NCBI GenBank assembly: GCA_023384455.1
Contig: JAHDWH010000034.1
Span: 1-37,138 of the forward strand
Source of the DNA: Caldilineaceae bacterium
Lineage (GTDB): Bacteria > Chloroflexota > Anaerolineae > Caldilineales > Caldilineaceae
Length of the DNA: 37,138 nucleotides
Direction: 5' to 3'
Shown: piece by piece, positions 353 to 23,641 of the stretch
Layout of the letters: every line of letters begins with the position of its first letter
Position numbering within the stretch: position 1 is the stretch's first letter
Program-made: the position numbers and the translations under genes
Notes under the pieces: generated by a model
Seen by the model: only the letters and a program-made list of their open reading frames with translations
Told to the model about the DNA's origin: nothing
Databases searched by the model: none

Positions 353-1438
353 ATGAAAACTTACCGTGCTGCTGTCATTGGCTGTAGTCGTATGGGTGGC
401 TTTATCGACAACGAAGTCGTTGGCTCGCCCAAAACAGCTTTGCCCTATTCCCACGCCGCCGGCTATATGGCCTGCGCACAGACTGATCTGATTGCTTGTT
501 CCGATGTGCGCCCGGATGTGATGGCCGAATTCGGCAAACTGTACAAAATACCGGCCAGCCGTCAATACACCGACTATCGGGAACTGATCGACAAAGAGCG
601 TCCTGAAATCCTCAGTATTGCCACCCAACCCGAACAGCGCGCCGAAATTACCATCTACGCGGCCGAGCACGGCGTTAAAGCCATCTACGCCGAAAAAGCC
701 ATGTCGGCCTCTCTGGGCGAGGCCTACGAAATGGTGGAGGCGCTGGAACGCAACGGCGTCTTTTTCAACCTGGGCACCAACCGCCGCTGGTCAGTCGCCT
801 ATGACCAGATGAAGGCGCTGGTGGACAGCGGCGAGCTGGGCGCACTCAAGAATGTCATCATCTACAACAACGGAACCCTCTTCAACACCGGCAGCCACTA
901 TATCGATCTGGCCATGCGGTTGAACAGCGACCAGCCGGCTGTGTGGGCCCAGGGCAATCTGCGCGCCAACGACGACATTTTCCATGGCGATATTCTGACC
1001 GACGACCCGGTGGGCGAAGGCACGATCTATTTCGCCAACGGTGTCACCGGCTACCTGCTGGTAACCCCCCGTAGCGGCGACATCGAAGCGATCTGCGAAA
1101 ATGGCACACTCACCGCCTACAACGACGGGTTGGAGTGGCATCTGCGCCGCCGCCAGCCCATCCAGCCCAGTGGGCGCACAGCACTGATGACCGCGCCCTA
1201 TACAGAACCGCCCATCGCCAGCAGCACCCTGGCGCTGGTCGAAGATCTGGTACACGCTCTGGATACAGGCGAACCGACCCGGGGCGGCCCACGCGTTTCT
1301 CTGGCCAGCACTGAATTGATCTTCGCCCTCATCGAGTCACACCGTCAGGGCGGTGCCAGGATTACTCTGCCAGTGCAAGAACGCGCTATTCGCTTACAAC
1401 GCAACCGCGGGCCGAACAAACCAAAATACTCCGTTTAA
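353..1438 (+). CDS. Gfo/Idh/MocA family oxidoreductase, paralog 1
   Basis: This 361-residue protein has the two-domain architecture of Gfo/Idh/MocA NAD(P)-dependent sugar or cyclitol dehydrogenases. An N-terminal Rossmann nucleotide loop (G-C-S-R-M-G, residues 10-15) is followed by the lysine of the family EKP motif, here read EKA (114-116), and a GSHYID segment (180-185) carrying the usual catalytic-type histidine. The start at 353 is chosen because AAAGGATAG lies just upstream and the protein then begins directly with the Rossmann strand; a longer in-frame start at 206 would add 49 unrelated residues. It is the first of four tandem paralogs that share an RRW/RRF-like segment and a C-terminal SHxxG..R..LP ending. 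Family is certain; substrate unknown. No signal peptide, so cytoplasmic. Confidence 0.9.
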   Translation: MKTYRAAVIGCSRMGGFIDNEVVGSPKTALPYSHAAGYMACAQTDLIACSDVRPDVMAEFGKLYKIPASRQYTDYRELIDKERPEILSIATQPEQRAEITIYAAEHGVKAIYAEKAMSASLGEAYEMVEALERNGVFFNLGTNRRWSVAYDQMKALVDSGELGALKNVIIYNNGTLFNTGSHYIDLAMRLNSDQPAVWAQGNLRANDDIFHGDILTDDPVGEGTIYFANGVTGYLLVTPRSGDIEAICENGTLTAYNDGLEWHLRRRQPIQPSGRTALMTAPYTEPPIASSTLALVEDLVHALDTGEPTRGGPRVSLASTELIFALIESHRQGGARITLPVQERAIRLQRNRGPNKPKYSV

Positions 1439-1597
1439 TCTTTTGGCAGTGTCCAGCATATCGACTTCCCAGAAGAAACTCCCTGGGCTTATCTGTGATC
1501 CGCTACCGGCGGTCTGCCGAGTGGGTCGGGATTGAAAAGGGATTTTCCCCTATTCGTTCCGCGCCCCCGCGCGTTGAATTTACAGGAACCCTCTACT

Positions 1598-2629
1598 ATG
1601 ACAGACAAAATTTATCGCGTTGCCATTGTTGGCCTGGGCCGCATGGGCAGCACCATCGACGATGAAAGACCTGCCGGTTTCCCCGCAGTCTCGATTGCCG
1701 CGGCCTGTGCTGCCAGCCCGCGTCTGAAAGTGGTCGCCGGGGCCGATATTGACCCGGTCAAGCGCGACGCCTTCCAAGCCCGCTGGGGTGTAGCAGCGCT
1801 CTACGACGATTATCTGGAGATGATTCGCCAGGAGCAGCCCGATCTGGTGGCTATCTGCACCAAAGGCGCGCTCCACGCCGAAATGACAGTAGCCGTGGCC
1901 GAAGCCAATGTGCCGATGATCTTCTGCGAAAAGGCGATTGCCTGCTCGATGGAAGAGGCAGACGCGGTCTTGGCCGCGGTGGGCAGCCGCAACATCCCCT
2001 TTAACACCGGTGTATTGCGCCGCTTCAGCCGTTCCTATCACGTGGCCCGGCGTATGATCGCCGACGGCGAGATCGGCGAACCCCGCGCCGCGGTACATTA
2101 CGCCGGCTCGAATCTGCTCCACGGCCACATCCACTCGCTGGACACCCTCAGCTTTTTGCTGGGCGATCCCCCGGTGCTGAGTGTTTTGGGGGAGCTTCTG
2201 CCCCGGAATCTGCTGATCGAAAACAACCGGCTGGACAAAGACCCCAACGCCATCTATCAGGTGCTCTTTGCCAATGGGGTAGAGGCGACCACCGCGCCCG
2301 GCGGCACCTGGGAGTTTGAAGTGATTGGCTCCCTGGGCAGCATCCGCGTCTGCAACAACGGCGACAGCCTGCATCTGCGCAAAGCCAAAAGCGAAAAGGA
2401 GCGCATCTTTCTCGACGCGCCCGCGCCTGCTGTGGAAGCCCACAGCACCACCCAGTCCTGTCTGGAAGATATCCTGGACGCCTATGAAACCGGGCGTCCG
2501 ACTCTGGGCAACATCCAGATCACCCACCACTTGACCGAAGCCTGCCTGGCCGTGGCCGAGAGCCATCGCCAGCAAAAGCGGATCACCCTGCCCCTGGAAA
2601 ACCGTTCGCTCTATGTCTTTCACGTCTAA
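1598..2629 (+). CDS. Gfo/Idh/MocA family oxidoreductase, paralog 2
   Basis: This 343-residue protein starts with a clear nucleotide-binding loop (G-L-G-R-M-G, residues 12-17). The EKP motif reads EKA (111-113, lysine 112), as in the preceding paralog, and His179 in HIHSLD is the likely catalytic histidine. The ATG at 1598 follows CAGGAACC and gives the family-typical N-terminus; an upstream ATG at 1532 would add 22 unrelated residues. It follows the first paralog after a 159-bp gap without a visible promoter or terminator, so probably the same transcript. The C-terminus (ESHRQQKRITLP) matches the other tandem copies. Likely an NAD(P)-linked oxidoreductase or epimerase acting on a sugar-like compound; the substrate cannot be read from sequence. 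Confidence 0.88.
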   Translation: MTDKIYRVAIVGLGRMGSTIDDERPAGFPAVSIAAACAASPRLKVVAGADIDPVKRDAFQARWGVAALYDDYLEMIRQEQPDLVAICTKGALHAEMTVAVAEANVPMIFCEKAIACSMEEADAVLAAVGSRNIPFNTGVLRRFSRSYHVARRMIADGEIGEPRAAVHYAGSNLLHGHIHSLDTLSFLLGDPPVLSVLGELLPRNLLIENNRLDKDPNAIYQVLFANGVEATTAPGGTWEFEVIGSLGSIRVCNNGDSLHLRKAKSEKERIFLDAPAPAVEAHSTTQSCLEDILDAYETGRPTLGNIQITHHLTEACLAVAESHRQQKRITLPLENRSLYVFHV

Positions 2630-2690
2630 AAGGCGTGTCGAGTAGAGAGCGTGTCGATCACACAACGTGTCCTGCATCGAGGAAATAAAA

Positions 2691-3788
2691 ATGACCAAAA
2701 ACTATCGCGTCGCCATTATTGGCACGGGTCGCATGGGCGGTCTGATCGAAGACGAGATTGCACCAGGCAACTTTTCCAAACCCTACAGCCACTTCGGCGC
2801 CTATGCTGCCATTGCAGAGACAGAGGTGATCGCCGTGGCGAACCGGGGCGCCGAGCGTATGCAGCGCTTCGCCGACCGCTTTGGCGTCACCAATACCTAT
2901 TTGGACTACCGGGCGATGATCGAGGAGGAGAAACCCGATATTGTCAGCATCACCACGCCCTCCTTTGCCCGGGCCGAGCCGATTATTTTTGCCGCGGAGC
3001 ACGGCGTCTCCGGCATCTATGCAGAGAAGGGGCTGTGCGCGTCTCTGGCCGAGGCGGATCGCATTGTGGACGCTTGCAAAGCCAATAACGTGGCCTTCAA
3101 CTGGGGCGCGATGCGTCGCCACCACGACGGCTATAAAAAGCTGCAAGCCGCCATTGGCAGGGGCGACATCGGCGAACCCCGCTATGCCACAATGTACTTC
3201 TACACCGACCTGATCAAACACCACCCCCACACCCTCGATCTGGTCGCTATGCTCCTGGGCGATCCCCAACCCCTGTGGGTGGAAGGACGGCTGATCGAGC
3301 AGGGCGATCCCGCGGACCCTGCCCCCCGGCGTGCCCACCCGGTCTACGACCCGGCCGGACATGGTTATCTGCCTTCCCCCGGCTTCGAGATTGCCGATCC
3401 AATGGTCGGTTTCTATCGGGTTGGCTATGCGGGGGAAGCTGAAGGGATTTTTGTACCCCGCCGGGGTTCCTTTGAAATCGATGTACACGGCACCGAAGGC
3501 CGCGCCCTCGCCTCGGAAAGCGGCGGGGATTTCCGTATCCGCCGCACCAATGGCAAGACCCAGACGACCGAAGAGACGATCTTCCGTCCAGGCGGCGAAA
3601 GCCCGACTATCTGCACCATCCGCGACATCCTGAACGAAATCGAGACGGGCGAACGCACCAAAGGCAATCTGGACATTACAATGCAAAGTGTGGAAGTGCA
3701 GTTCGGTCTGGCCCATTCCCATCTGCAAGGGGGCAGCCGCGTCGCCCTGCCGGTGACGGATCGCACGCTGTACATCCCCGGCGGATAA
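2691..3788 (+). CDS. Gfo/Idh/MocA family oxidoreductase, paralog 3
   Basis: A 365-residue member of the same tandem family. The loop G-T-G-R-M-G (11-16) binds the nucleotide, and the canonical EKP motif is changed to EKG (112-114) with the lysine kept. His180 within KHHPHTLD is the probable catalytic histidine. The start at 2691 follows GAGGAAAT; an in-frame start at 2667 would add eight residues. Compared with the neighbours it has a longer C-terminal domain with a charged, proline-rich insertion (about residues 208-225). Co-transcription with its neighbours is inferred from the 61-bp upstream and 12-bp downstream gaps. Substrate unknown. Confidence 0.88.
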   Translation: MTKNYRVAIIGTGRMGGLIEDEIAPGNFSKPYSHFGAYAAIAETEVIAVANRGAERMQRFADRFGVTNTYLDYRAMIEEEKPDIVSITTPSFARAEPIIFAAEHGVSGIYAEKGLCASLAEADRIVDACKANNVAFNWGAMRRHHDGYKKLQAAIGRGDIGEPRYATMYFYTDLIKHHPHTLDLVAMLLGDPQPLWVEGRLIEQGDPADPAPRRAHPVYDPAGHGYLPSPGFEIADPMVGFYRVGYAGEAEGIFVPRRGSFEIDVHGTEGRALASESGGDFRIRRTNGKTQTTEETIFRPGGESPTICTIRDILNEIETGERTKGNLDITMQSVEVQFGLAHSHLQGGSRVALPVTDRTLYIPGG

Positions 3789-3800
3789 AGGAACTTTCTG

Positions 3801-4832
3801 ATGCAATTGCGAGTTGCCATTGCTGGCTGCCATCGAATGTTGCAGCCCCAGTTGACGGGCCACAACTTTGCGTCCGCCTTTGCGGCAGTGCCAGAAACCG
3901 AAATCGTTGCCGTGTACGATCGGGGCGCAGAGACACGCGCCGGTTTTCTCCGCTGTTGGGGAGAAATGCCAGCCTACGACGACTACACGCGCCTGTTGCG
4001 CGAGGTGCAGCCCGATCTGCTCTGCATTGCAACCCGGCAGACATTACACGCCGAACAGATCGAGCAGGCCGCCGCGGCCGGTGTACGGGGCATTCTCTGC
4101 GATAAGCCCCTGGCCACGACGCTGCTGGAAGCCGATCGTATTGTCTCTGCCTGCCAGGAGAGTGGGGTTACACTGACCTTTGCCCTGGATCGGCGCTGGC
4201 ACGAACCCTATCGCCATCTGCGCCAGTTGATTGGCGAAGGGATTGTGGGCCGGGTGACGTCTATTCTGGCCTTCGGCTGTCCGAATCTGATCAACCACGG
4301 CTGCCATTGGTATGATACGGCGTTGATGCTACTGGGGGATCCAGAGCCGCTATGGGTGTGCGGCTGGGTGGACGATCTGGCCGGTGAACCGGCTGATTCC
4401 CGGCGGCGACTGGACCCACCAGGCCGGGGCCAGGTGGGATTGAGCAATGGTGCGACCCTCACTGTGACAGCAGACGGCGGACGACGACCCACTTTTGAGG
4501 TCATCGGTGAAGAAGGCCGACTGCTCATTTTGCAGGATGCCGAGCTTTGTTATCACTGGACTGAGAGCGGTCCGCAAGGAAAACCGGAAATGCGACCGCA
4601 ATTGATACCACTGACCCAAGACCCCTGGCCGGCTGGCCCGGCAATGGTGCGAGATCTGGTGGCGGCTGTGGTGTCCCACTCCACAACAGCCTGTGGTGTC
4701 GAGCAGGCGCGTCGGGCCACGGAGATCGGTTTTGCCATCCATACATCCCACCTGCACACCGGTGCCCGGGTGGCGCTTCCCCTTGCAGACAGAACGCTTT
4801 CCATCCCATCTTTTCCGTGGGGTAATGAATAA
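3801..4832 (+). CDS. Gfo/Idh/MocA family oxidoreductase, paralog 4, atypical nucleotide loop
   Basis: This 343-residue protein begins 12 bp after the previous gene, with AAAGGAAC as ribosome-binding site. It is clearly homologous: DKP (101-103) replaces EKP, RRW (131-133) and GCHWYD (167-172) are present, and the C-terminal SHLHTGARVALPL matches the paralogs. The N-terminal glycine loop is degenerate (G-C-H-R-M-L-Q), lacking the last glycine of GxGxxG, so dinucleotide binding may be altered, or the protein may be a partner subunit or a scaffold instead of an active dehydrogenase. It ends the four-gene tandem array; a new promoter follows at 4861. Confidence 0.85.
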   Translation: MQLRVAIAGCHRMLQPQLTGHNFASAFAAVPETEIVAVYDRGAETRAGFLRCWGEMPAYDDYTRLLREVQPDLLCIATRQTLHAEQIEQAAAAGVRGILCDKPLATTLLEADRIVSACQESGVTLTFALDRRWHEPYRHLRQLIGEGIVGRVTSILAFGCPNLINHGCHWYDTALMLLGDPEPLWVCGWVDDLAGEPADSRRRLDPPGRGQVGLSNGATLTVTADGGRRPTFEVIGEEGRLLILQDAELCYHWTESGPQGKPEMRPQLIPLTQDPWPAGPAMVRDLVAAVVSHSTTACGVEQARRATEIGFAIHTSHLHTGARVALPLADRTLSIPSFPWGNE

Positions 4833-4966: not shown

Positions 4967-5953
4967 ATGACCATACCTATCCACGTAACCTCCATCCGAC
5001 AAATCTTCAACGACGGCAACCACAACGCATTTACAGACCTGTGCCATTTTCAGGACCGGTACTATCTGACCTTCCGTAGCTGCCCCGACGGGCATATGCT
5101 CTTCACAACATCAAAAATCCTGGTGATGTCCAGCGTCGATGGTCAGGATTGGGAAGAGGTACACGCCTTTAGTGTACCCAAACGGGATGTCCGCGACCCC
5201 CACTTTCTTGTCTTCCAGGGGAAGCTCATTGTCTACAGCGGCACTTGGTGGGTGGATACGACAGATGCCAAGGAACGGGATGTCAACGATCATCTGGGGT
5301 TTTGTGTCTGGACTGAAGATGGTCGCAGGTGGGAAGGCCCGCGAATGCTGGACGGCACCCACGGCTATTACATCTGGCGGGCTGCCACCCATAACGGTGT
5401 GGCCTATCTGAATGGGCGGCGTATCCGCAATTTCGATGTGGTTCCCCGCCGGGCCGAACCCGCTGAATATATGGAGTCCTGGCTGCTCCACAGCAGGGAC
5501 GGGTTCACTTGGGCACCGTTGGGCTTAATTCAACCCACATTTGGGGACGAGACGGCCCTGCTCTTTGAGGACGATGGCAGCTTGCTGGCAGTCGCCCGTG
5601 CTGGCGGTCATCCGGCCCAACTCTGTCGTTCACAACCGCCCTATACCGAATGGAGCCGGGTTGATCTGGACCGACACGTGGGGGGACCGCTGCTGACCAA
5701 ATGGGGCGACACCTATCTGGTCGGTGGTCGCAAGCAGATTGGCGACACATCGCCCGTCACCACCCTCTATGAACTGATCGACGACCAGTTGCAGGAGATC
5801 ACGGAATTGCCCAGCGGTGGCGACAACTCCTATCCAGGCTTTGTAGCCTTGTCGGCCAGCGAGGCCCTTCTCTCCTTCTATTCCAGCCACGAAGGCAGTG
5901 GCACCGGTTTGGCCCCTTCGGCTATCTATTTGGCACGCCTCTCTCTACGCTAA
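4967..5953 (+). CDS. Sialidase-like beta-propeller protein (cytoplasmic)
   Basis: The 328-residue protein shows repeated short Asp-box-like segments, SxxDGxxW and close variants, near residues 56-62 (SVDGQDW), 116-122 (TEDGRRW) and 176-182 (SRDGFTW). They are one residue shorter than the classical SxDxGxTW box. A DETALLFEDDGSLLAVAR-like stretch (residues 194-211) resembles the blade carrying the acidic residue of sialidase-fold enzymes. The repeats indicate a beta-propeller of the sialidase/BNR type. No signal peptide is visible, so it should act inside the cell on an imported substrate. It is the first gene behind its own promoter, directly before the importer genes. Activity could be hydrolase, lyase or epimerase. 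Confidence 0.7.
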   Translation: MTIPIHVTSIRQIFNDGNHNAFTDLCHFQDRYYLTFRSCPDGHMLFTTSKILVMSSVDGQDWEEVHAFSVPKRDVRDPHFLVFQGKLIVYSGTWWVDTTDAKERDVNDHLGFCVWTEDGRRWEGPRMLDGTHGYYIWRAATHNGVAYLNGRRIRNFDVVPRRAEPAEYMESWLLHSRDGFTWAPLGLIQPTFGDETALLFEDDGSLLAVARAGGHPAQLCRSQPPYTEWSRVDLDRHVGGPLLTKWGDTYLVGGRKQIGDTSPVTTLYELIDDQLQEITELPSGGDNSYPGFVALSASEALLSFYSSHEGSGTGLAPSAIYLARLSLR

Positions 5954-6044: not shown

Positions 6045-7031
6045 ATGTTACCGTTTATTCTACGTCGTATATTGTTTATGATTCCCACCCTGGCGGTGAT
6101 CAGTGTGATCTCTTTTGCGATCATCGAAGCGCCTCCGGGCGACTATTTGGACGCCTATGTGGATCGCCTGACATCCCAGATGCAGTCTGTGGACCCTTCC
6201 GAGGTTGAGGCGCTGCGTGCCCGCTACGGGTTGGGTCAATCCTGGAGCGTGCGTTACTGGCGCTGGTTCAGTGGTGTGCTGCAGGGTGATCTGGGGCGGT
6301 CGATGGAGTGGAATCAGCCTGTGGCAAAGCTGATCGGCGCTCGGCTGCCGTGGACACTTGCGATTTCTGTCACATCCCTGGTGCTTGTCTATGTGATCAG
6401 CATCCCTATCGGCATTTATTCAGCCAGCAACCAATATTCGCCGGGCGATTATGTGGCGACGCTGATTGGCTTTCTGGGATTGGCCACCCCCAATTTTCTG
6501 CTTGCGCTCATCTTCCTCTGGCTCTACTTCTTGTGGACGGGCAATGTGGCTGTGGGGCTATTTTCCGACGAATACATTATTGCGCCCTGGAGCTTTGCCA
6601 AGTTTCTTGACCTGCTGAGCCACATCTGGCTGCCCGCACTGATCGTCGGCACATCGGGCACGGCTGGTCTTATCCGGGTGATGCGGGCCAACCTGCTGGA
6701 CGAACTACAAAAACCCTATGTGATGGTGGCCCGTGCCAAGGGTCTCAAAGAAGGGCGGGTATTGGTCAAGTATCCTTTGCGCATTGCCATGAACCCTGTG
6801 GCCAGCACAATCGGCTGGACCCTGCCTGCGCTTGTCAACGGTGAACTGCTGACGTCTATGGTGCTGGGTCTGCCAACCCTGGCGCCGCTCTTCGTCGGTG
6901 CGCTGCTCAGCCAGGATATGTTTTTGGCCGGCAGCGTCGTATTCATTCTGAGCGCCCTGACTTTGATCGGAACGCTCATTTCAGACATTATTCTGGCTTG
7001 GCTGGACCCTCGCATTCGGGAGGCTATATGA
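6045..7031 (+). CDS. ABC transporter permease, DppB/OppB type
   Basis: A 328-residue inner-membrane permease with the typical N-terminal FILRRILFMIP start and first membrane helix, followed by five further hydrophobic segments. The cytoplasmic EAA-like loop reads VMVARAKGLKEGRVLVKYPLR, the ATPase contact of the peptide/nickel family. The start at 6045 is preferred over 5898 because the longer form adds a non-family extension; CAGGAAC lies upstream. Its stop overlaps the next start (ATGA at 7028-7031), showing translational coupling. Opp/Dpp-type importers in Chloroflexota and Thermotogae often carry oligosaccharides, which fits this gene context. Confidence 0.93.
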   Translation: MLPFILRRILFMIPTLAVISVISFAIIEAPPGDYLDAYVDRLTSQMQSVDPSEVEALRARYGLGQSWSVRYWRWFSGVLQGDLGRSMEWNQPVAKLIGARLPWTLAISVTSLVLVYVISIPIGIYSASNQYSPGDYVATLIGFLGLATPNFLLALIFLWLYFLWTGNVAVGLFSDEYIIAPWSFAKFLDLLSHIWLPALIVGTSGTAGLIRVMRANLLDELQKPYVMVARAKGLKEGRVLVKYPLRIAMNPVASTIGWTLPALVNGELLTSMVLGLPTLAPLFVGALLSQDMFLAGSVVFILSALTLIGTLISDIILAWLDPRIREAI

Positions 7032-8170
7032 CTATGTTGGATGCAAGCCCAGAGAATTCCCATCTGGAAACTATGCCCGTCAAGGAAGAAAAGCTGCTGG
7101 TCGCGTCCCAATGGCAGCTTATCCGTTGGAAATTTGTGCGACACCGGGTGGCTGTTTTCTCGCTTATCGTACTGGTGATCTTCTATCTGGCGGCTATGTT
7201 TGCAGAATTTGTTGCGCCCTATGCGCCAGGCCACTACGACGCGGACCTGACCCTGGCCCCGCCCCAATCGCCACATTTCTTCGATAACGGACAATTCCAG
7301 TGGCGGCCTTTTGTCTATGGCGTGTCTTCGGAATATGACATCAATACGTTCAAGACCACCTATACGATAGACGAAAGTTTGAAGTATCCCATCCGGTTCT
7401 TTGTCCACGGGGACCCCTATAAACTCTGGGGCATCTTCGAGAGCGACCGCCATCTCTATGGGGTGGAGGAAGGCACAGTCTTTCTCTTCGGTGCCGACAA
7501 CCAGGGCCGGGATGTACTCTCGCGCGTGATCCACGGGGGACGTATCTCCCTTTCTATCGGGCTGGTCGGGATCGCGATCAGTTCGCTGATCGGTATTCTG
7601 ATTGGCGGTTTGTCGGGCTACTATGGCGGGGTGATCGATATGATCATCCAGCGCATTATCGAGTTCCTGCGCTCCATCCCCACGCTCCCTCTCTGGATGG
7701 CCTTGAGTGTGGCCCTTCCGCCCACCTGGTCTGTGGTGCAGGTCTATTTCGGCATTGTGATGATTCTTTCTCTTGTCGGCTGGACCGGATTGGCCCGGGT
7801 TGTGCGCGGGAAGTTTATGTCCTTGCGCGAGGAAGATTTCGTCATGGCCGCCCAGCTCAACGGCTCTACAGAAATACGCACGATCTTCAAGCATATGCTG
7901 CCCTCCTTCTACAGCCACGTCATCGCTTCCCTCACCCTGAGCGTGCCGGGGATGATTCTGGGTGAAACTGCCCTGAGTTTCTTGGGGCTGGGTCTGCAAG
8001 AACCGGCTGTAAGCTGGGGTGTTCTCCTGCGCGATGCCCAATTCATCCGAGTACTGGCCTCATCGCCCTGGCTGCTGCTGCCGGGGGCACTGGTGGTGGT
8101 GGCGATTCTGTGCTTCAACTTCGTGGGTGACGGTCTACGCGACGCAGCCGATCCATACGCGTCGATTTAG
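7028..8170 (+). CDS. ABC transporter permease, DppC/OppC type
   Basis: A 380-residue partner permease. The first helix (about residues 45-60) is followed by a long extracytoplasmic region of about 110 residues (roughly 65-150), much longer than in E. coli DppC, then five more helices and the EAA-like loop EEDFVMAAQLNGSTEIRTIF. Start 7028 overlaps the previous stop and has GGGAGG upstream. A large external loop of this kind is seen in Opp-type transporters linked to carbohydrate uptake, which is supportive but not proof. Confidence 0.93.
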   Translation: MTMLDASPENSHLETMPVKEEKLLVASQWQLIRWKFVRHRVAVFSLIVLVIFYLAAMFAEFVAPYAPGHYDADLTLAPPQSPHFFDNGQFQWRPFVYGVSSEYDINTFKTTYTIDESLKYPIRFFVHGDPYKLWGIFESDRHLYGVEEGTVFLFGADNQGRDVLSRVIHGGRISLSIGLVGIAISSLIGILIGGLSGYYGGVIDMIIQRIIEFLRSIPTLPLWMALSVALPPTWSVVQVYFGIVMILSLVGWTGLARVVRGKFMSLREEDFVMAAQLNGSTEIRTIFKHMLPSFYSHVIASLTLSVPGMILGETALSFLGLGLQEPAVSWGVLLRDAQFIRVLASSPWLLLPGALVVVAILCFNFVGDGLRDAADPYASI

Positions 8171-8178
8171 GGACAAAT

Positions 8179-9249
8179 ATGTCAATCCATTTACAAAAAA
8201 ACAAGAATATCTCCGACGCACAGGCAGTCGCCAGGCGTGGACGGGACCAGGATATGCTGGCCGAAGATGTTCTGCTCAGTGTGCGCAATCTATCCACCCA
8301 CTTTTTCTCGCGGGAAGGTGTCCTGCGCGCGGTGGATGGTGTCAGCTTCGATATCAAACGGGGTGAAATCTTGGGTGTTGCCGGCGAAAGCGGCTGTGGC
8401 AAAAGCGTGATGGCGCAATCGATCCTGCGCATTGTGCCTACCCACGGCCGTATTGTCGACGGTGAAATGTTGCTCCAGCACGACGATGAGATTGTAGATT
8501 TGGCCCAACTGGATTGGAGGGGTGACAAAATCCGTGAAATCCGTGGGGCCACAGTCTCTATGGTTTTCCAGGAACCGATGACCTCTTTCAGTATGGCGTA
8601 CACCATCGGCAACCAGATTATTGAAGTCATCCGCCTGCATCAGAAAGTAGACGAGAGGGAGGCGCGCAGCCGGGCCATCGACATCCTGCGACGGGTGGGC
8701 ATGCCGCAGCCGGAGCAGAATATCGATGCCTACCCCTTTGCCCTGAGCGGCGGCATGCGTCAGCGGGCAATGATTGCGATGGCTCTCTCCTGTCATCCGC
8801 TTCTGCTCATTGCCGACGAGCCAACAACTGCGGTCGATGTGACTATCCAGGCCCAAATTTTGGAGCTGATGAAAGACCTGCAGAAAGAGATGAATATGGC
8901 GATGGTCGTCATTACCCATGACATGGCGGTCATCTCCGAACTTTGCGATAGGGTTATGATTATGTACCTGGGCAAAGATGTGGAGAGTGCGCCGGCTGGC
9001 GAACTTTTCCGCAATCCCAGGCATCCCTATACAAAGGGCCTTCTGAATTCGGTGCCCCAATTGGGCGGCGGCAAATCCCAAGAGATTGTGGCCATCACCG
9101 GCACAGTGCCCAGCCCATATGACCGACCTACTGGCTGCTCCTTTCATCCCCGATGCCCCGATTTTATCTCCGATGTCTGCGATCAGAGCGAACCGCCACA
9201 AATTACCGTTGGACCCAATCATTCGGTCCGCTGCCACCTCTACGTTTGA
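8179..9249 (+). CDS. ABC transporter ATP-binding protein, DppD/OppD type
   Basis: A 356-residue ATPase with Walker A GESGCGKS (69-76), signature LSGGMRQ (189-195) and Walker B LLIADEP (209-215). The C-terminal extension contains the family segment PTGCSFHPRCP, with cysteines that in relatives can bind an iron-sulfur cluster. It starts 8 bp after the permease, with AGGGAC upstream. An N-terminal extension of about 30 polar residues precedes the ATPase fold. It powers import together with the next gene product. Confidence 0.94.
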   Translation: MSIHLQKNKNISDAQAVARRGRDQDMLAEDVLLSVRNLSTHFFSREGVLRAVDGVSFDIKRGEILGVAGESGCGKSVMAQSILRIVPTHGRIVDGEMLLQHDDEIVDLAQLDWRGDKIREIRGATVSMVFQEPMTSFSMAYTIGNQIIEVIRLHQKVDEREARSRAIDILRRVGMPQPEQNIDAYPFALSGGMRQRAMIAMALSCHPLLLIADEPTTAVDVTIQAQILELMKDLQKEMNMAMVVITHDMAVISELCDRVMIMYLGKDVESAPAGELFRNPRHPYTKGLLNSVPQLGGGKSQEIVAITGTVPSPYDRPTGCSFHPRCPDFISDVCDQSEPPQITVGPNHSVRCHLYV

Positions 9250-9258
9250 GAAATAGAT

Positions 9259-10341
9259 ATGCCTGAGAGAAAAAGTAGATCCAAGACGGATTTCGTAGTG
9301 GAAGTGGATAACCTCACAAAACACTTTCCTATCACCCGCGGTTTTATGCGCACTGTTGTGGGGCAGGTCAAAGCTGTGGATGGCGTGAGTTTTTCTGTGC
9401 GCCGGGGCGAGACCCTGGCGCTGGTGGGCGAGAGCGGCTGCGGCAAGACGACCACCGGGCGCTGCGTTATGCGGGCCATAGAGCCGACCAGCGGTCATAC
9501 AATCTATCGGGTAAGCCCGGACGCGGCCCCTGTGGACATCAACGCGCTGGGCAAAAAGGAACTGCGCGATTTTCAGCGCCACGCGGGGATGATCTTCCAG
9601 GACCCCTATTCGTCCCTCAACCCGCGCCTCTCGATTCTGGAGATCGTCGGTGAGCCTTTTATCACCCGCAAAATCGTGCGCAACCAGCGGGAGCTGGAGG
9701 AACGGGTGGCAGAACTGCTGCGCAGTGTACGGCTGGACCCGACGTATATGCGCCGCTATCCCCACGCATTCAGCGGCGGCCAGCGTCAGCGCATCGCCAT
9801 TGCCCGTGCCCTGGCACTGCGCCCCGCCTTTATTGTGGCCGATGAGCCTGTCTCCGCTTTGGATGTATCGGTCCAAGCCCAGGTTTTGCATCTGCTCAAA
9901 GAATTACAGACCGAGCTTAATCTGACCTATCTGTTTGTGGCCCACAACCTGGCGGTGGTGGAGTATATCAGCGACCGGGTGGCTGTGATGTATGTGGGCA
10001 AGATCGTAGAATTGGGCCAAACCGAAGAGATATTTGCCAACCCCAAGCATCCCTATACCGAAGCACTTCTGTCGGCAGTACCTACAATTTCGGAAGACAC
10101 AACGAAAAAGCAGCGTATCGTCCTGGAAGGAGATGTGGCCGATTCTATGAATGTGCCGACCGGCTGTTATTTCCATCCCCGCTGCAAATATGCCGAGGAT
10201 ATCTGCCGAACAGAAACTCCCCCTTTCGTCAATGTGGCCGCACAGGGCGCATCACCCCATTACTCGTTATGTCACTTTGCCGAATCGCTCTCTCTCGAAG
10301 GGGTTACAATGTCGCCTGTGACAACTGTAAATGTCACATAG
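9259..10341 (+). CDS. ABC transporter ATP-binding protein, DppF/OppF type
   Basis: A 360-residue ATPase with Walker A GESGCGKT (57-64), Q-loop [10 protein letters not shown] (114-123), signature FSGGQRQ (171-177) and Walker B FIVADEP (191-197), followed by the C-terminal [10 protein letters not shown] segment. It follows its partner ATPase by 9 bp. The importer thus encodes both distinct ATPase halves, the usual arrangement for Dpp/Opp systems. Confidence 0.94.
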
Positions 10342-10478
10342 CCTGTGTATAGAAAGGAGAAGCCAGCGCCATCATCTGTGATTTTCCCCGCAGAGACCGT
10401 ATCGTCCGCTTTGTATGAGTGTATATGCGACCGTCGCGGTTGCATAGCTCCATTCAGAAAGGCCAAAGGAGAAACAGA

Positions 10479-12590
10479 ATGTTATTTAGATCGAAGAAAC
10501 TGATGTTGCTCAATCTATTGATTGTGCTTACTATGCTGGTGAGCGCTTGTGGTGCAGCCGCAACACCCGAAGCACCGGCTGCCGCGGAGCAGCCCGCAGC
10601 AACCACAGAGCAGGCCGCGCCCGAGCAGCCTGCCGCAGCCGAGGCCCCGTCCACCGCTGATTCTATGGCGGGGCCTGTGTTGGCGGATAAACCTGCGGAT
10701 GCAGGTGAGCGCCCTGTGACCATGCAAGTCTATAACAGCCCGGCAGACGCGGGCGGCATCACCGAATATCACGAGGCCCCCGAACTGGCGGCAATGGTCG
10801 CCAGCGTTGATCTGCCTGCCGTGGAGGAGCGCCTGCCTGTTGAACCCGTTGTGGTAGAGCCAGATGAAACAATCGGCAAATATGGCGGCACGCTCGTAGC
10901 CAGCATTGATGGGCAGCGCCCTGTGGCTGCCGATGTCAACTACTTTCTCATCGAACCCCTGACTGTACATAACCCACAAGAAGAGATCGTTCCGAATGTG
11001 GCCAGCGGTTGGGAGTGGAATGACGACTATACCCAGTTGACACTCACCCTGCGCAAGGGTATCAAATGGAGCGATGGCGTTCCCTTTACCTCCGAAGACA
11101 TTATGTTCTGGTGGAATGACCTCGTGCTCAACACAGAACTTACCCCCACGCCCCACGCACTGCTGTCGCGCGATGGCGTACTGGCTGAACTGGTCGCACC
11201 GGATGATTTCACCGTGCAGTTCACCTTCTCCAAAGCCTATGCGTTGTTTACTACGTATCTGGGGAGTTGGGGCTTTCCGCGCACAGACCTCACGACTATG
11301 CCCAAGCACTACCTGATGCAATTCCACCCCGGCTACACGGAAATGGCCGACATCGAAGCCAAGATGAAGGAAGAGGGCTTTGATACCTGGGTGGATCTTT
11401 TCAACTACATGCGTTCCAGCGAAAACCCGAATAACCCCTCCCTGGGGGCCTGGATTCTCAACGAGCGACCTCCCCAGCAGGTCCAGACCTATCGACGAAA
11501 TCCCTACTACTGGAAAGTTGACACCGCCGGCAATCAGTTGCCCTATATGGACGGCATACGCACCATCCGCATTGCGGATACCGAAGCGGCCCTGCTCAAA
11601 ACCATCGCCGGGGAATTAGACTACGTGGGCATTGGCTGGACGGGTGGCCCTGCCAATCTGGCTATTCTCTCGGAGAACAAAGAGAAGGCTGACTATCGCT
11701 TTGCCTATGCCAACTGGATGCCCAACGCCTATGGTAACATTATGTTCAACTACACCAGCGGCGACGAGACCAAGCGGGAACTGTACAACCAGAAGGAATT
11801 CCGTCAGGCTCTGTCCGTGGCAATCAATCGCGAGGAGATCATCAAGCTTCAGTATAAGGGCGGCGTCTTTGCTTCCCAGATTGCACCGGCCCGTGGCGCT
11901 CCCTATCACGGCGAATCGGATCTCTTCCAGTCCTGGGCACAGTACGATCCAGAACTGGCCAACCAGATGCTGGACGATCTGGGCTTGACCGAACGGGATG
12001 GCGATGGCTTCCGCTTGGCTCCCAACGGTGACAAGCTGCTGCTGATCATCTCGGCCACCACTTCCTGGCCGGCAGAAACGCCTGTGCTGATGGAACTGGT
12101 GCGGGGCTATTGGGCGGCCGTGGGCATCAATGCATCTGTGGCCCCCGAAGCCGGCGCGCTGTGGGGCACTCGCCACAACAATGGCGAGCACGATGTCTCG
12201 GCTCGGGGCGGTCACTTTGGCGGCGGCCCAGTGCATCCCACGCTGAACAGCAACACCTTTGCCCTGACCGGCTGGCAATGGGCCCCCGAATGGGCCAAGT
12301 GGCTGGACACAGACGGTGCGCAGGGTGTAGAGCCACCGGAAGATGTCAAACAGCTGCGTGTGCTGCGCGATCAGATTCTGGGCGAAGGCGACGAGGATAC
12401 CCGCAATACGCTCATGCAGCAGGTCTTCGAAATCCACATGGACAACCTGTGGTCCATCGGCCTGGTGGTGGACGATCCCCGCTTCGGCCAGTTGAAGATC
12501 GTCAAGAACCGGGTGCGCAATGTGCCTACCTCGTCCATTTCGGGCGAATGGTATCCGATGGTGCCCGCCTCCTGGTTTATCAACGAATAA
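10479..12590 (+). CDS. ABC transporter substrate-binding lipoprotein (SBP_bac_5)
   Basis: A 703-residue extracytoplasmic solute-binding protein. The N-terminus has a charged start, a hydrophobic helix and the lipobox LVSAC with Cys24 as lipidation site, then an Ala/Pro/Glu linker to about residue 60, as is common in Chloroflexota lipoproteins. The family-5 signature TLRKGIKWSDGVPFTSEDI lies near residues 190-210. It is longer than typical DppA/OppA (about 530-550). Start 10479 has AAAGGAGA upstream; an upstream ATG at 10419 would destroy the signal peptide. The 137-bp gap to the ATPase gene holds no clear promoter. It ends just before a strong terminator. It probably sets the substrate range of the importer. 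Confidence 0.93.
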   Translation: MLFRSKKLMLLNLLIVLTMLVSACGAAATPEAPAAAEQPAATTEQAAPEQPAAAEAPSTADSMAGPVLADKPADAGERPVTMQVYNSPADAGGITEYHEAPELAAMVASVDLPAVEERLPVEPVVVEPDETIGKYGGTLVASIDGQRPVAADVNYFLIEPLTVHNPQEEIVPNVASGWEWNDDYTQLTLTLRKGIKWSDGVPFTSEDIMFWWNDLVLNTELTPTPHALLSRDGVLAELVAPDDFTVQFTFSKAYALFTTYLGSWGFPRTDLTTMPKHYLMQFHPGYTEMADIEAKMKEEGFDTWVDLFNYMRSSENPNNPSLGAWILNERPPQQVQTYRRNPYYWKVDTAGNQLPYMDGIRTIRIADTEAALLKTIAGELDYVGIGWTGGPANLAILSENKEKADYRFAYANWMPNAYGNIMFNYTSGDETKRELYNQKEFRQALSVAINREEIIKLQYKGGVFASQIAPARGAPYHGESDLFQSWAQYDPELANQMLDDLGLTERDGDGFRLAPNGDKLLLIISATTSWPAETPVLMELVRGYWAAVGINASVAPEAGALWGTRHNNGEHDVSARGGHFGGGPVHPTLNSNTFALTGWQWAPEWAKWLDTDGAQGVEPPEDVKQLRVLRDQILGEGDEDTRNTLMQQVFEIHMDNLWSIGLVVDDPRFGQLKIVKNRVRNVPTSSISGEWYPMVPASWFINE

Positions 12591-12742: not shown

Positions 12743-13729
12743 GTGAAAGCACTCGTCCTCACTGGCCCGCGACAGCTTGAACTGCAAGAGTTACCCATCC
12801 CTGCCCCCGGCCCCGGCCAGGTGTTGGTGCGCCACAAAATCACAGCCATCAGCACAGGCAGCGAAGTCATCCGCTATCTGGCCGGTGGGAGGCCAGCCAT
12901 TGGCTATCTGGGCGCGGGCGTAGTCGAAGCAGTCGGCCCCAGTGTCGATCAGCTTCAACCGGGCGACCGGGTGCGCACCGCCGGTCCCCACCACAAATAT
13001 GTGCTGACACCGGTGGAAGCCGCGCTAAAAATCCCCGACGGCGTGGACTTCGCGCAGGCTGCCTTTGCCTATCTGCCCACCCTCGTCCTCCACGCCCTGC
13101 GTCTGTGCGACTATAGCCTGGGCGAGACGCTCTGTGTGCTGGGGCAAGGGGTGGTCGGTCTGATGGGCAGCGCGCTGGCCGCGGCCCTGGGCATTCCCCT
13201 GCTCGCTTTGGACACCGAAGAGACGCGTCTGAGCATCGCCCGTCAAATGGGCATACGTCACGCGCTCGACCCGCGGGCAAGCGATTTTACCGCTACGCTG
13301 GCTGGCATTGTCGGCGACAGAGGCATCGACGTGACTGTGGATGCCACGGGAAGCTACCGCGGGCTGGTGCAGGCGATGGAGTTGACGCGCAAGTGGGGAC
13401 GGGTGGCGATCCTCGGCATCTACCGTCCCGACCCGCCTGATCCGGCTATGGCCGCGGCCATCCACCAGGCCTATCTGAAGAATTTTCACAGCAAAGAATT
13501 GCGTCTGGTCGGCTGCTCCAACGACCCCGCAGAGAGCTATCCAGCCCACATCTGGCGCTTCACCATCCACGACAACACCCGTCAGAGCCTCGACCTGCTG
13601 GGACAGGGCAGGCTCAACCTGGCCCCGGCTATCACCCACCGCTTTGCGCCGGAGGATGGCCCCACTCTCTACGAGCGTCTCGGCCAGCGGGAAGCGGGGC
13701 TTCTGGGGGCTGTTTACGAATGGGACTGA
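12743..13729 (+). CDS. MDR-family dehydrogenase lacking zinc ligands
   Basis: A 328-residue medium-chain dehydrogenase/reductase with an N-terminal GroES-like domain and a Rossmann domain (VLGQGVVGLMG near residue 132). Where zinc alcohol dehydrogenases have the catalytic cysteine (xCGTD), this protein has ISTGSE, and the usual GHE reads GYL; the four-cysteine structural zinc loop is also absent. It should therefore be a zinc-free reductase or dehydrogenase, as in the BchC-like and quinone-reductase branches. It opens the second plus-strand gene group after the terminator. A second zinc-less MDR is encoded at 22583-23614. Confidence 0.85.
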   Translation: MKALVLTGPRQLELQELPIPAPGPGQVLVRHKITAISTGSEVIRYLAGGRPAIGYLGAGVVEAVGPSVDQLQPGDRVRTAGPHHKYVLTPVEAALKIPDGVDFAQAAFAYLPTLVLHALRLCDYSLGETLCVLGQGVVGLMGSALAAALGIPLLALDTEETRLSIARQMGIRHALDPRASDFTATLAGIVGDRGIDVTVDATGSYRGLVQAMELTRKWGRVAILGIYRPDPPDPAMAAAIHQAYLKNFHSKELRLVGCSNDPAESYPAHIWRFTIHDNTRQSLDLLGQGRLNLAPAITHRFAPEDGPTLYERLGQREAGLLGAVYEWD

Positions 13730-13785
13730 ATCATCGAATTTGACACGTTAAAGATTGCATATCCCGGAGGATAGAGATTTATTTT

Positions 13786-14958
13786 ATGTCAGATCAATCA
13801 ACACCCATTTTGGATGTGCGCGGTCTGCCGGGCACATCGGAAGTCATCGCCTATCAGGACGGCGGCCTTTTCCCTGTGCTGGCCCTGGCTGGCGACGCAG
13901 TGGTTGCGGTGCTGCGCGGTGGGGCCGGCCATTTGGGGCTGGATGGCCGCATCGAAGTCGTGCGTTCCCTGGACGCCGGGCACACCTGGTCGCCGCCGGC
14001 TGTGGTCGCTGACAGCGACTTTGATGACCGCAACCCGGCCTTTGGCGTCACCCCGGCTGGCACATTGATTTTGTCCTACCACCGGCAGGGCAACTACGAC
14101 GAGGCTGGCAACTGGCGTCGCCGTGAGGCAATGGAGCAAAGCCGGGTCGAAATTCGGGTTACCCGCTCCCACGACCGGGGGCTGACCTGGGAGACGCCTT
14201 ATCCCCTGGGTGTTGACCTGCTGGCGGCTGGCTCTCCTTTTGGCAAGATCGTCACCCTGGCCGATGGCACGCTGTTGATGCCCATCTATGGCCGCCCGGT
14301 CGCCCCGCTGCTGGGCAATCGGGCCGATGAGGTGATTGGGGATGGGGATTGTAGCTATCTGGTGCGCTCCCACGACGACGGTGCCACCTGGGGTGAACCG
14401 TCGCTGATTGGCGTCAACAAGAACGAGACGGCCCTGACTGTCCTGCCCGACGGTGGCGTGCTGGCGCTGATGCGCAGCACACCCCCGGATCAGGCGCTCT
14501 ACAGCTCGCGCTCGGATGATGGCGGTCGCACCTGGTCACCGCCGGTGCAGGTGACCGGCGCACGGCAACACCCGGCTGATCTGGTACAACTGGCGAATGG
14601 CGATATTCTGATGACCTATGGCAACCGCACCCCGCCCTATCGCATCGAAGGCAAAGTCAGCCGGGACGGGGGACGCAGTTGGCTGACCCCGCTGCTCACC
14701 TTCTCCGCCCCCCTGTATGGATACGATCTGCCGTCAGAGCGACCCACCGACTTGGGTTATCCGTCCAGCGTTGTGCAGAGGGGGGCGGGTCCAGGCCAGG
14801 GCGTGACAATCTACTACTACAACCCATCCGTGCGCAAGCCCTGGCAGCACGAAAACCGCAGCGCCGAAAGCCGCTACCTGGCCCGCGATTACTACGCCGT
14901 CGCCGTGACCTGGCGGGAAGACGAGTTGATCGCCGCCATTGATCGGCATATCGGATAG
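13786..14958 (+). CDS. Sialidase-like protein with five Asp boxes
   Basis: A 390-residue beta-propeller protein with five textbook Asp boxes: SLDAGHTW (61-68), SHDRGLTW (128-135), SHDDGATW (195-202), SDDGGRTW (243-250) and SRDGGRSW (292-299). Residues DDRNP (80-84), NKNETAL (211-217, possible nucleophile-activating Glu214) and GYPSSV (324-329, possible Tyr325) match positions of sialidase catalytic residues, but the arginine triad cannot be confirmed by eye. There is no signal peptide or carbohydrate-binding module, so it should be cytoplasmic. The ribosome-binding site GGAGG lies about 16 nt upstream of the ATG, somewhat far. Substrate may be a nonulosonate or another sugar; sialidase-fold proteins also include lyases. 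Confidence 0.85.
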   Translation: MSDQSTPILDVRGLPGTSEVIAYQDGGLFPVLALAGDAVVAVLRGGAGHLGLDGRIEVVRSLDAGHTWSPPAVVADSDFDDRNPAFGVTPAGTLILSYHRQGNYDEAGNWRRREAMEQSRVEIRVTRSHDRGLTWETPYPLGVDLLAAGSPFGKIVTLADGTLLMPIYGRPVAPLLGNRADEVIGDGDCSYLVRSHDDGATWGEPSLIGVNKNETALTVLPDGGVLALMRSTPPDQALYSSRSDDGGRTWSPPVQVTGARQHPADLVQLANGDILMTYGNRTPPYRIEGKVSRDGGRSWLTPLLTFSAPLYGYDLPSERPTDLGYPSSVVQRGAGPGQGVTIYYYNPSVRKPWQHENRSAESRYLARDYYAVAVTWREDELIAAIDRHIG

Positions 14959-14967
14959 GAGAGAGAA

Positions 14968-15750
14968 ATGCAGCGATTTGAAGGCAAGACAGCCCTGATT
15001 ACAGGGGCATCGAGAGGGATTGGGCGGGGCATTGCCCTCTGCCTGGCCGCGGAGGGCGCGGATGTGGTGGTGAACTATCGCACACACCCGGACGAGGCCC
15101 AATCGGTGGCGGATGAGATTAGGGGGATGGGCCGCCAGGCAATCATCTGGCAGGCGGATGTGGCTGACCGCTCAGCGTTGGAGGCAATGTTCGCCGGAAC
15201 CGTCGAGCGCTTTGGCCGCGTGGATGTGGTGGTTGCCAATGCCGCCTTCTCCATCCGCGAGCCGGTGCTCGAAGCCAAGTGGGAAAATGTGCGGCGCACG
15301 ATTGAGGTGACCCAATTTGGTGTCTTTCACGCCTGCCAGTTGGCCGCGCAACAGATGGTCAAACAGCCGTTGCTGGGACGCAGCCGGGGCAAAATTGTCA
15401 TCATCAGTTCGGTACACGAGGAGATGGCCTTCGCCCTCAGCGCTGCCTACAATATGTCCAAAGCCGCCATCAACCACCTGGCGCGCACAATGGCGATTGA
15501 ATTGGCCCCTCACCGCATTAATGTCAACGTCGTCAACCCGGGCTGGATCGACACCCCCGGCGAGCGCAATTACTTCAGCGAAGAGCAGATTCAGGAGGGT
15601 GGCGCAAAGATTCCCTGGGGGCGGATTGGCATTCCAGAGGATATCGGCAAAGCAGTGGCCTATCTGGCCAGCGACGATGCGGACTATGCCACCGGCTCGG
15701 TCCTGCGCGTGGACGGCGGCCTGATGGTCGGATTGAGCGCACCAGGATAA
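14968..15750 (+). CDS. Short-chain dehydrogenase/reductase (SDR)
   Basis: A 260-residue classical SDR: TGASRGIG cofactor motif (12-19), NAA in place of NAG (91-93), Ser147/148, and the catalytic pair Tyr161/Lys165 in YNMSK. Annotation as 3-oxoacyl-ACP reductase or glucose dehydrogenase would be only by family resemblance. It starts 9 bp after the sialidase-like gene with AGGAGAG upstream, so very likely co-transcribed and acting on a product of that pathway. Confidence 0.92.
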   Translation: MQRFEGKTALITGASRGIGRGIALCLAAEGADVVVNYRTHPDEAQSVADEIRGMGRQAIIWQADVADRSALEAMFAGTVERFGRVDVVVANAAFSIREPVLEAKWENVRRTIEVTQFGVFHACQLAAQQMVKQPLLGRSRGKIVIISSVHEEMAFALSAAYNMSKAAINHLARTMAIELAPHRINVNVVNPGWIDTPGERNYFSEEQIQEGGAKIPWGRIGIPEDIGKAVAYLASDDADYATGSVLRVDGGLMVGLSAPG

Positions 15751-15758
15751 TTATTCCT

Positions 15759-16184
15759 ATGTCAAAGATAAATCAGGGCGAAATTGACAGCTTTTTGCAG
15801 GAGCCGCGCCATGCGATTGTGGGCACGCTGGGCCGGGACGGTGCGCCCCAGCTCAGCCCGGTCTGGTATATCTACGAAGAGGGGCGCTTCTATATCGGCA
15901 TCACCAGCGACACGGCCAAATACCGCAATCTGCGCCGGGACCCGCGCATCAGCCTGTGCATCGACGGCGGACGGGCGGATGTGCGTACAGTGATGGTGGC
16001 TGGCACAGCCGAACTGTACGAAAAGAGCCATCCTCTGCAAGTAGCAATGCGCTGGCGGCTGATCTCCCACTATATCGCCGATACCGAAGAAGCGCTCCGC
16101 TATGCGAAGTCCAGCCAGGAGTGGGACGCGGTGCTGGTCGTCGTCACCCCCCAGAAGATCATCACACAGAATTTTTCAGCATAA
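15759..16184 (+). CDS. PPOX-class flavin- or F420-dependent enzyme
   Basis: A 141-residue protein with the split-barrel fold signature of the pyridoxamine-phosphate-oxidase family: GTLGRDGAPQLSPVWYIYE (22-40) and a KYRNLRRDPRISLCI segment (54-68). Its length is that of the small F420-dependent or FMN-binding subgroup common in Actinobacteria and Chloroflexota. It follows the SDR by 8 bp; AGGAT at the SDR stop may serve as ribosome-binding site. The reaction is unknown. Confidence 0.8.
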   Translation: MSKINQGEIDSFLQEPRHAIVGTLGRDGAPQLSPVWYIYEEGRFYIGITSDTAKYRNLRRDPRISLCIDGGRADVRTVMVAGTAELYEKSHPLQVAMRWRLISHYIADTEEALRYAKSSQEWDAVLVVVTPQKIITQNFSA

Positions 16185-16208
16185 CCCCTACTTCCAAAGG
16201 AAGCCCCG

Positions 16209-17626: not shown

Positions 17627-17682
17627 GGGGCAACAGGCCCGATCGGTACTCCTTTTCCCACAGGGCGACCCCGTTTTTTTTT
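17627..17682 (+). terminator. Possible terminator of the plus-strand group
   Basis: GGGG (17627-17630) plus GCCC (17637-17640) can pair with GGGC (17663-17666) plus CCCC (17669-17672), giving an interrupted stem, followed by nine T residues (17674-17682). It lies between the gene remnant and the convergent minus-strand gene, whose stop codon starts at the end of the T run. Confidence 0.45.
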
Positions 17683-20548: not shown

Positions 20549-20559
20549 TTGCGTACCCC

Positions 20560-21567: not shown

Positions 21568-21612
21568 TGCTTTTCCCCTATGCTTTTTCTCTGTGATAAA
21601 AATGCGCGTATT

Positions 21613-22569: not shown

Positions 22570-22582
22570 CAGGGATCACCAT

Positions 22583-23614: not shown

Positions 23615-23641
23615 AGGAATCCTTTTCCTGTAACGAAGATT

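Follow-up and report, generated by a model that had tools for sequence, protein, structure and literature searches.

What a row of four related enzyme genes with altered active-site motifs does for its host is the question raised by a contig of a Caldilineaceae bacterium (JAHDWH010000034.1; all 37,138 nucleotides were analysed and are referred to as the window). The window corresponds to contig C125 of a Chloroflexota assembly of 6.77 Mb (98.6% complete, 6.1% contaminated) and carries six genes for Gfo/Idh/MocA proteins: P1, P2, P3 and P4, which follow one another on the plus strand with intergenic gaps of 159, 61 and 12 bases, and P5 and P6, which lie further downstream (Table 1). The nearest named relatives of the genome are Caldilineaceae and Anaerolineae metagenome-assembled genomes, and P1 of one related locus (L001) is 96% identical to P1 here. 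The original prediction had read the EKP position as EKA, EKA, EKG and DKP in P1–P4 and as EKP in P5 and P6, and had proposed that the four genes arose by duplication and that their products form a hetero-oligomer or act on successive positions of one substrate; the translations bear out all six triplets, with the motif lysine present in 6/6. We find that P1–P4 are old paralogs whose signatures are fixed and whose grouping is real and not random, and that they are, on a somewhat better than even judgement, separate carbohydrate dehydrogenases or ketoreductases, dependent on nicotinamide adenine dinucleotide or its phosphate (NAD(P)), of one glycoside-catabolic locus that also holds an ATP-binding cassette (ABC) importer and a sialidase-fold protein.

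All six proteins exceed the Pfam cut-off for PF01408, the N-terminal Rossmann domain, with more than 24 bits, and all stay below the cut-off of every named NCBIfam model. For P1, the protein modelled among P1–P4, the AlphaFold2 (AF2) model has a mean predicted local distance difference test score (pLDDT) of 92 and shows the family fold (Z 33.1 to 3db2 over 305 residues, root mean square deviation 2.5), with Z of about 30–33 to levoglucosan dehydrogenase, DgpA, 1,5-anhydrofructose (1,5-AF) reductase, WlbA and others. The genome as a whole contains 62 PF01408 matches, of which 58, window included, could be compared at the motif (left out were L284 and L286, which have no profile match, and places on contigs C443 and C207). 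In the 52 members other than P1–P6 the triplet is EKP in 42, QKP in three, TKP in two, ETP in two, and NKS, AVP and DKP in one each; ten of the 52 thus depart from EKP, so that the full motif is usual rather than family-defining, and neither xKA nor xKG occurs in any of them. A run of four family genes never arose in 20,000 random draws with 58 such genes among 6,000, an assumed gene number. Because of this, and because xKA and xKG are absent from the other members, we regard P1–P4 as more than a chance set. Other close same-strand groups of PF01408 genes lie on contigs C139 (28309–30823, three genes), C60 (27760–29211, two) and C392 (5618–7974, two), so that the tandem arrangement of family genes recurs in this genome.

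The altered triplets are fixed in relatives of these proteins. Among distinct sequences with at least 50% identity over at least 250 residues, gathered using P1–P6 as queries and with the window included, EKA is found in 83/85 relatives of P1 (EKP in the other two) and in 25/25 of P2, and EKG in 36/36 of P3; the segments HGHIH..D of P2 and KHHPH..D of P3 are likewise present in 25/25 and 36/36. Relatives of P4 have DKP (22/27) or EKP (5/27), those of P5 EKP (7/16) or DKP (9/16), and those of P6 EKP throughout (11/11). Judged from these alignments, the Ala or Gly after the catalytic Lys is steady within the P1, P2 and P3 groups, and the signatures are fixed rather than noise. The exchange of Glu for Asp at the motif is minor, since DKP occurs elsewhere (1/52 in this genome, 9/16 for P5) and EKP occurs among the P4 relatives. 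Nor is the change from Pro to Ala or Gly proof of new chemistry, because close P1 relatives keep EKP: sequences of 47–51% identity from other families have EKP and are placed inside the P1 group of the tree. EKA is also found in a group beside P6 (L363, L367). At least four Pro-to-Ala/Gly changes are needed on a tree of 72 sequences, and a single such event was rejected on this count and because of the EKP forms inside the P1 group. The altered motif as a functional mark is therefore weakened, and by itself it means little. Two further marks had been thought to unite P1–P4. A closing SHxxG is exact in P1 (SHRQG) and P3 (SHLQG) but reads SHRQQ in P2 and SHLHTG in P4, and it does not single the four out, as P6, which the original prediction had set apart, has SHELG; the RR of an RRW-like segment is present in P1–P4, but also in P6 and in 9/52 other members.

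The original prediction had not remarked on a further shared feature: in P1–P4 and P6 the stretch leading up to the catalytic His is shortened by about 20 residues. Between a conserved Gly (residue 163 of P1) and this His lie 19 residues in each of P1–P4, 22 in P6 and 40 in P5; in the 52 other members of the genome the same span is at most 22 in four and 27–67 in 48. The Asp of the K-D-H triad is also replaced, by Asn, His, Lys and Asn in P1–P4, Arg in P6 and Trp in P5. The catalytic Lys and His are present in all six proteins, and within each ortholog group the Lys, the His and the Asp of the H..D segment are kept. That P1–P4 are decaying, or purely regulatory in the manner of Gal80, would fit the replacement of the triad Asp in all of them and of the motif Pro in three; yet in 25 to 85 relatives the signatures stay fixed, with Lys and His kept, and we give this explanation hardly any credence.

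To follow the descent of the paralogs we ran the phylogeny that had been suggested, with rows picked by hand, and P1–P4 do not fall into distant clades. In a tree of 145 rows made by a quick method and including the genome's own members, P1–P4 and P6 lie in one clade of 82 rows (Shimodaira–Hasegawa-like approximate likelihood ratio test, 99), with P5 elsewhere. A 52-row tree under a mixture model places P1–P4 in one clade (98/98), next to which come copies A, B and C of sponge-type genomes and then P6. The 72-row tree includes Escherichia coli NanY and YcjS and was made without the long-branch sequences own_L241, own_L248, own_L262 and phy_L379_15077 and the near-duplicates L186 and L350; in it a short-loop clade of 66 rows (100/96) leaves NanY, YcjS and P5 outside, P1–P3 form one clade (100/97), and P4 joins them weakly (92/57), with P6 in the same larger clade. 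P1–P4 alone as one clade is therefore well supported in the 52-row tree and weak with respect to P4 in the 72-row tree. We note that the A, B and C copies appear recent from their short branches in the 145-row tree.

The division into four altered and two normal proteins does not match the tree: P5 is distant (15–22% identity), whereas P6 is not (25–31%). Origin by duplication is supported in the broad sense, given the P1–P3 clade and the short-loop clade, but not as a local tandem event. P1–P4 are 27–35% identical to one another and the paralog stems measure 0.7–1.2 changes per column in the 72-row tree and 0.8–1.75 in the 52-row tree, and because of these long stems and low identities we take the duplications to be old. 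Recent local tandem duplication was rejected on the long stems and on the occurrence of orthologs of each paralog elsewhere. The duplications within the short-loop clade (P1–P4 and P6) would thus predate the divergence of these Chloroflexota lineages by their age, and each paralog would have kept its own active-site signature thereafter.

Neighbouring family genes recur in other genomes, in varying combinations. In 29 of 40 loci inspected, the first 20 of which were picked because arrays had already been seen in searches, at least two family genes stand in a row on one strand. Runs include P6-like–P1–P2–P3–P4 (L232), P1–P2–P3 (L231), P1–P3–P4 (L229), P1–P2 (L225–L227), P1–P2–P5–P6 (L224) and P6–P5 (L235), and L230 has P1–P3 with further singles. 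Because L224 carries P5 and P6 in the same row as P1 and P2, the former two are not outsiders to the set. Sponge-type loci (L217, L218, L221, L233 and L234) have an array of A, B, C and P2 with P5 nearby. Elsewhere we find P3–P4 in two genomes of family f122 (L379, L380), a P1-like gene with P4 (L381), and P3 with one P1-like gene (L382–L384) or two (L385–L389), the pairing of P3 with P1-like genes occurring in families f105 and f79. By eye, arrays of the 17 sponge-type Caldilineaceae genomes of group g3 have four family genes in eleven, three in three and two in three.

This record bears directly on whether P1–P4 assemble, obligately or by preference, into a hetero-oligomer in which some subunits are structural and others catalytic. 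Their adjacency on one strand, their membership of one clade and a signature fixed for each gene would suit such an assembly, and oligomers are known in the family, the solved members being homo-dimers or homo-tetramers in the accessible text of PMC5969746. An obligate four-part complex is nevertheless unlikely because P1, P3 and P4 can each be found apart from the rest of the set and the arrays differ between lineages. P3 has no family neighbour in 8/8 inspected loci of family f68 (L390–L397), P4 stands alone in four loci (L312–L314 and L398), and P1 lacks P2–P4 orthologs within the examined flanks of 48/48 Poribacteria loci; in L229 P3 follows P1 with no P2 between them, and the L231 run lacks P4. 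Three sponge-type genomes, each on a single contig, have P1, P2 and P4 at distances of about 60 kb or more and gave no P3 ortholog. A search of 301 genomes of the phylum at E 1e-34, this genome included, gave a P3-type match in 34 and a P4-type match in 33. Among eight genomes reached via P1 loci, a close P4 (49–60% identity) was found in two and in none of the other six, and the best P2-type matches were 40–43% identical in the Poribacteria, which make up seven of the eight, and 54% identical in the remaining genome. Because Lys and His are kept in all, moreover, no paralog group resembles a dead structural subunit. Taken together, these points make the hetero-oligomer, in obligate or preferred form, very doubtful: the gene set is recurring and variable, not a new machine. 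The other proposal, action on successive positions of one substrate, would fit the way in which the genes cluster again and again in changing combinations.

It is also conceivable that each paralog acts on a different released sugar and that clustering reflects co-regulation only, with no shared pathway. The wide variation in array make-up between lineages, the many single-gene loci and the identities of 27–35% speak for this explanation. The same few paralog groups nevertheless recur together in several families of the phylum, which linked steps explain more easily, and we consider separate sugars improbable while taking the idea seriously.

Table 1 Features of the window.
Feature	Positions	Strand	PF01408 E	EKP-position motif	Segment of the catalytic His
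P1, Gfo/Idh/MocA	353–1438	+	1.5e-10	EKA, aa 114–116, nt 692–700	NTGSHYID, nt 884–907
P2, Gfo/Idh/MocA	1598–2629	+	2.3e-14	EKA, aa 111–113, nt 1928–1936	HGHIHSLD, nt 2120–2143
P3, Gfo/Idh/MocA	2691–3788	+	1e-16	EKG, aa 112–114, nt 3024–3032	KHHPHTLD, nt 3216–3239
P4, Gfo/Idh/MocA	3801–4832	+	1.2e-19	DKP, aa 101–103, nt 4101–4109	NHGCHWYD, nt 4293–4316
Sialidase-fold protein, no obvious signal peptide	4967–5953	+
ABC importer, peptide/oligosaccharide-type: two permeases (first start uncertain), two ATPases, 723-aa lipoprotein-like binding protein	6047–12590	+
Zinc-type alcohol dehydrogenase (ADH), BNR_2 propeller, short-chain dehydrogenase/reductase, PNPOx-like protein, DegT aminotransferase	12743–17396	+
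BNR_2 propeller, class III aminotransferase, amidohydrolase, threonine-dehydratase-like protein, zinc-type ADH, aldo/keto reductase, HpcH/HpaI aldolase	17682–25843	-
P5, distant Gfo/Idh/MocA, full-length loop	26880–27959	+		EKP	WLGCHYID
P6, Gfo/Idh/MocA, short-loop clade like P1–P4	28105–29160	+		EKP	RNGTHLMD
G+C-rich tandem repeat	31954–31997
Membrane-protein-like open reading frame	32001–34304
G+C-rich tandem repeat	32351–32544
Membrane-protein-like open reading frame	34457–36880
G+C-rich tandem repeat	35130–35288

The genes around P1–P4 would fit a locus of carbohydrate catabolism. The sialidase-fold protein encoded directly downstream of P4 belongs to no clear Pfam or NCBIfam family, its only Pfam match being a BT_1020-like propeller below the cut-off, and a sequence search of the PDB with it gave no real match. 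Its AF2 model (pLDDT 76, built from five sequences) is a six-bladed propeller with Z 29.8 to 5hx0, a structure without assigned function, and Z 26–28 to many sialidases, over about 290–312 residues. E195, R211, R255 and Y289 are invariant in 18/18 homologs, whereas the first Arg (R37) is not kept in all 18. GH33 sialidases have an Arg triad, a Glu/Tyr pair and an Asp acid, and the invariant residues may correspond to part of this set. The invariant Glu, two Arg and Tyr suggest that the protein may be an active hydrolase, and it could be the founder of a new glycosidase family. The best NCBIfam match of the importer is Opp4A, at 96 bits and under the cut-off.

In sponge-type genomes the sialidase-fold gene and the importer are kept at about 70% identity, some 15 kb before the array of P5 and A-B-C-P2, and because this module is retained near the arrays we regard importer, sialidase-fold protein and dehydrogenases as tied across two genera. 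Several genes found here at 19–25 kb, for an amidohydrolase, a class III aminotransferase, an ADH, an HpcH aldolase and an aldo/keto reductase, adjoin P1 in sponge-type Caldilineaceae, and the aldo/keto reductase of that neighbourhood is found here at 29 kb; in L012, L064 and similar loci of these genomes, a stretch of about 0.2–9 kb holds HpcH aldolase, zinc-type ADH, class III aminotransferase, amidohydrolase, a DUF455-type protein, two aldo/keto reductases and P1. Further carbohydrate-active genes lie beside relatives of the set, namely a GH63-type hydrolase beside the A-B-C-P2 array, a fucosidase beside P3–P4, a BNR protein beside P3 in two f68 loci scanned, and a sulfatase and GH116 beside the sialidase-fold gene in other genomes. 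In Poribacteria (L040:6095-13768) P1 accompanies a xylose-isomerase-like protein, a GDSL esterase, a 3-keto-disaccharide hydrolase (PF06439, at the cut-off), a Gfo/Idh/MocA protein and an epimerase, likely a 3-keto-glycoside set. A survey of sponge Chloroflexi reports, in the portion available, that the carbohydrate repertoire of Anaerolineae and Caldilineae is enlarged and that one Caldilineae bin has GH33 (PMC6306507). We note also that the tandem repeats near the far end of the window have units of 7–8 bases and that two of them are inside the neighbouring large open reading frames, where they are translated as low-complexity inserts.

The simplest view of P1–P4 is that they are active dehydrogenases or ketoreductases, because P1 has the family fold and the Lys, the His and the following Asp are kept in all groups. 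Gene order, clade, loop deletion, fixed motifs and neighbourhood are what we observe; the activity, the substrate, the direction of reaction and the oligomeric state belong to a pathway that we infer. In it a glycoside taken up by the importer would be cleaved intracellularly by the sialidase-fold protein and the BNR proteins, and the dehydrogenases would oxidise the sugars, help to eliminate or rearrange them and re-reduce them. Each dehydrogenase would probably form a homo-oligomer by itself and serve a separate substrate or step. Such a scheme would be in keeping with paralog genes that appear repeatedly together, in sets of varying make-up and with importers, propeller hydrolases and other dehydrogenases as neighbours.

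Several points weigh against assigning P1–P4 to one such pathway as active dehydrogenases. The triad Asp is replaced in all six proteins and the Pro of EKP in three, and reduced or different chemistry is possible because Ala mutants of K, D or H in Pl-scyllo-IDH lost activity, according to the accessible text of PMC5969746. Co-clustering would also fit unrelated substrates under one regulator. Finally, PF06439, the 3-keto-disaccharide hydrolase, was found in none of the 20 window proteins scanned with Pfam.

An alternative enzymatic role is suggested by the structure search, in which the P1 model matches the sulfoquinovosidase structures 8qc3, 8qc5 and 8qc6 with Z of about 31. P1–P4 could on this account be NAD-dependent glycosidases of the GH109/GH188 type, in the manner of GH109 enzymes or of the sulfoquinovosidases that belong to Gfo/Idh/MocA. 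Ordinary dehydrogenases, however, tie with them on Z in the same listing, so that the structure matches do not separate the two classes, and we hold glycosidase activity to be very unlikely.

These observations matter because the Gfo/Idh/MocA family is strongly expanded in this genome and P1–P6 score below the cut-offs of the named NCBIfam models. The short-loop clade, with its fixed signatures and its recurrent clustering with importers and hydrolases, offers a handle for assigning functions to many genes of Chloroflexota, both sponge-associated and free-living, and of Poribacteria. Natural variants, in particular close P1 relatives with EKA and with EKP, let the need for the triad Asp and the motif Pro be probed. 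To date we have found no paper on EKA or EKG variants, or on tandem Gfo/Idh/MocA sets in Chloroflexota, in a literature search that covered mostly papers available without subscription.

How do P1–P4 compare with systems that are known? With Gfo/Idh/MocA dehydrogenases such as levoglucosan dehydrogenase, DgpA, 1,5-AF reductase and scyllo-inositol dehydrogenase they have in common the PF01408 Rossmann domain, the overall fold and the catalytic Lys and His; they differ in the shortening before the His, in the replaced triad Asp and, in P1–P3, in the Ala or Gly in place of Pro.

A second likeness is to E. coli NanY (YjhC) and Ruminococcus gnavus NanOx, in which a His lies in or next to the Asp place (HHxH). 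The likeness is strongest in P3, which has the motif (HHPH), partial in P2 and P4, and absent from P1 and P6, and the locus also has a sialidase-fold neighbour. YjhC (6o15) is among the listed structure matches of P1, and 6z3b and 6z3c, presumably both RgNanOx, are absent among the 50 matches listed. P2–P4 could accordingly be NAD-cycling hydratases or lyases that oxidise, eliminate or hydrate, and re-reduce the products of the sialidase-fold protein. In NanOx a His takes the usual place of the Asp, and an HxxH motif is present (per the accessible part of PMC7535918), the alignment sets HHIHELD of NanY against KHHPHTLD of P3, HGHIHSLD of P2 and NHGCHWYD of P4, and the neighbouring gene encodes a sialidase fold with invariant Glu, Arg, Arg and Tyr. 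NanY, however, lies on a long branch outside the short-loop clade and keeps EKP and a full-length loop (37 residues against 19), P1 and P6 have no extra His, and NanE (PF04131) was not found in this genome by a search that finds it in 8/14 control genomes. We therefore think this role distinctly unlikely, and the His-rich likeness of P2–P4 is at most convergence because NanY is outside the clade and NanE was not found. An N-acetylneuraminic acid route was rejected, as NanE was not found in this 98.6% complete genome (lyase and kinase were not searched for). A more speculative idea, which we consider rather unlikely, is that the short-loop clade forms a functional branch of its own in the Gfo/Idh/MocA superfamily, with NAD-cycling lyase or hydratase chemistry made possible by the lost loop, the replaced Asp (with His in or next to it in P2–P4) and the Ala or Gly, and that the tandem paralogs form an assembly line for taking apart a sugar, carboxylated or anhydro, that the neighbouring sialidase-fold enzyme releases.

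Comparable in organization are two known gene sets with several linked dehydrogenases, in which a ring hydroxyl is oxidised, rearrangement or cleavage follows, and a reduction completes the sequence (for ycjQRS, going by its annotation). In E. coli ycjQRS, annotated as guloside or glucoside 3-dehydrogenases and an epimerase, the Gfo/Idh/MocA protein YcjS stands beside another sugar dehydrogenase, YcjQ, which we take to be a zinc-type ADH; the difference is that YcjS lies outside the short-loop clade and that a xylose-isomerase-like protein was found in none of the 20 window proteins scanned. The levoglucosan set lgdA-lgdB1-lgdB2-lgdC brings together linked enzymes for oxidation, elimination, hydration and reduction (accessible text of PMC7676230), and by analogy with this set and with ycjQRS we infer that P1–P4 may divide the labour on a glycoside in a similar way.

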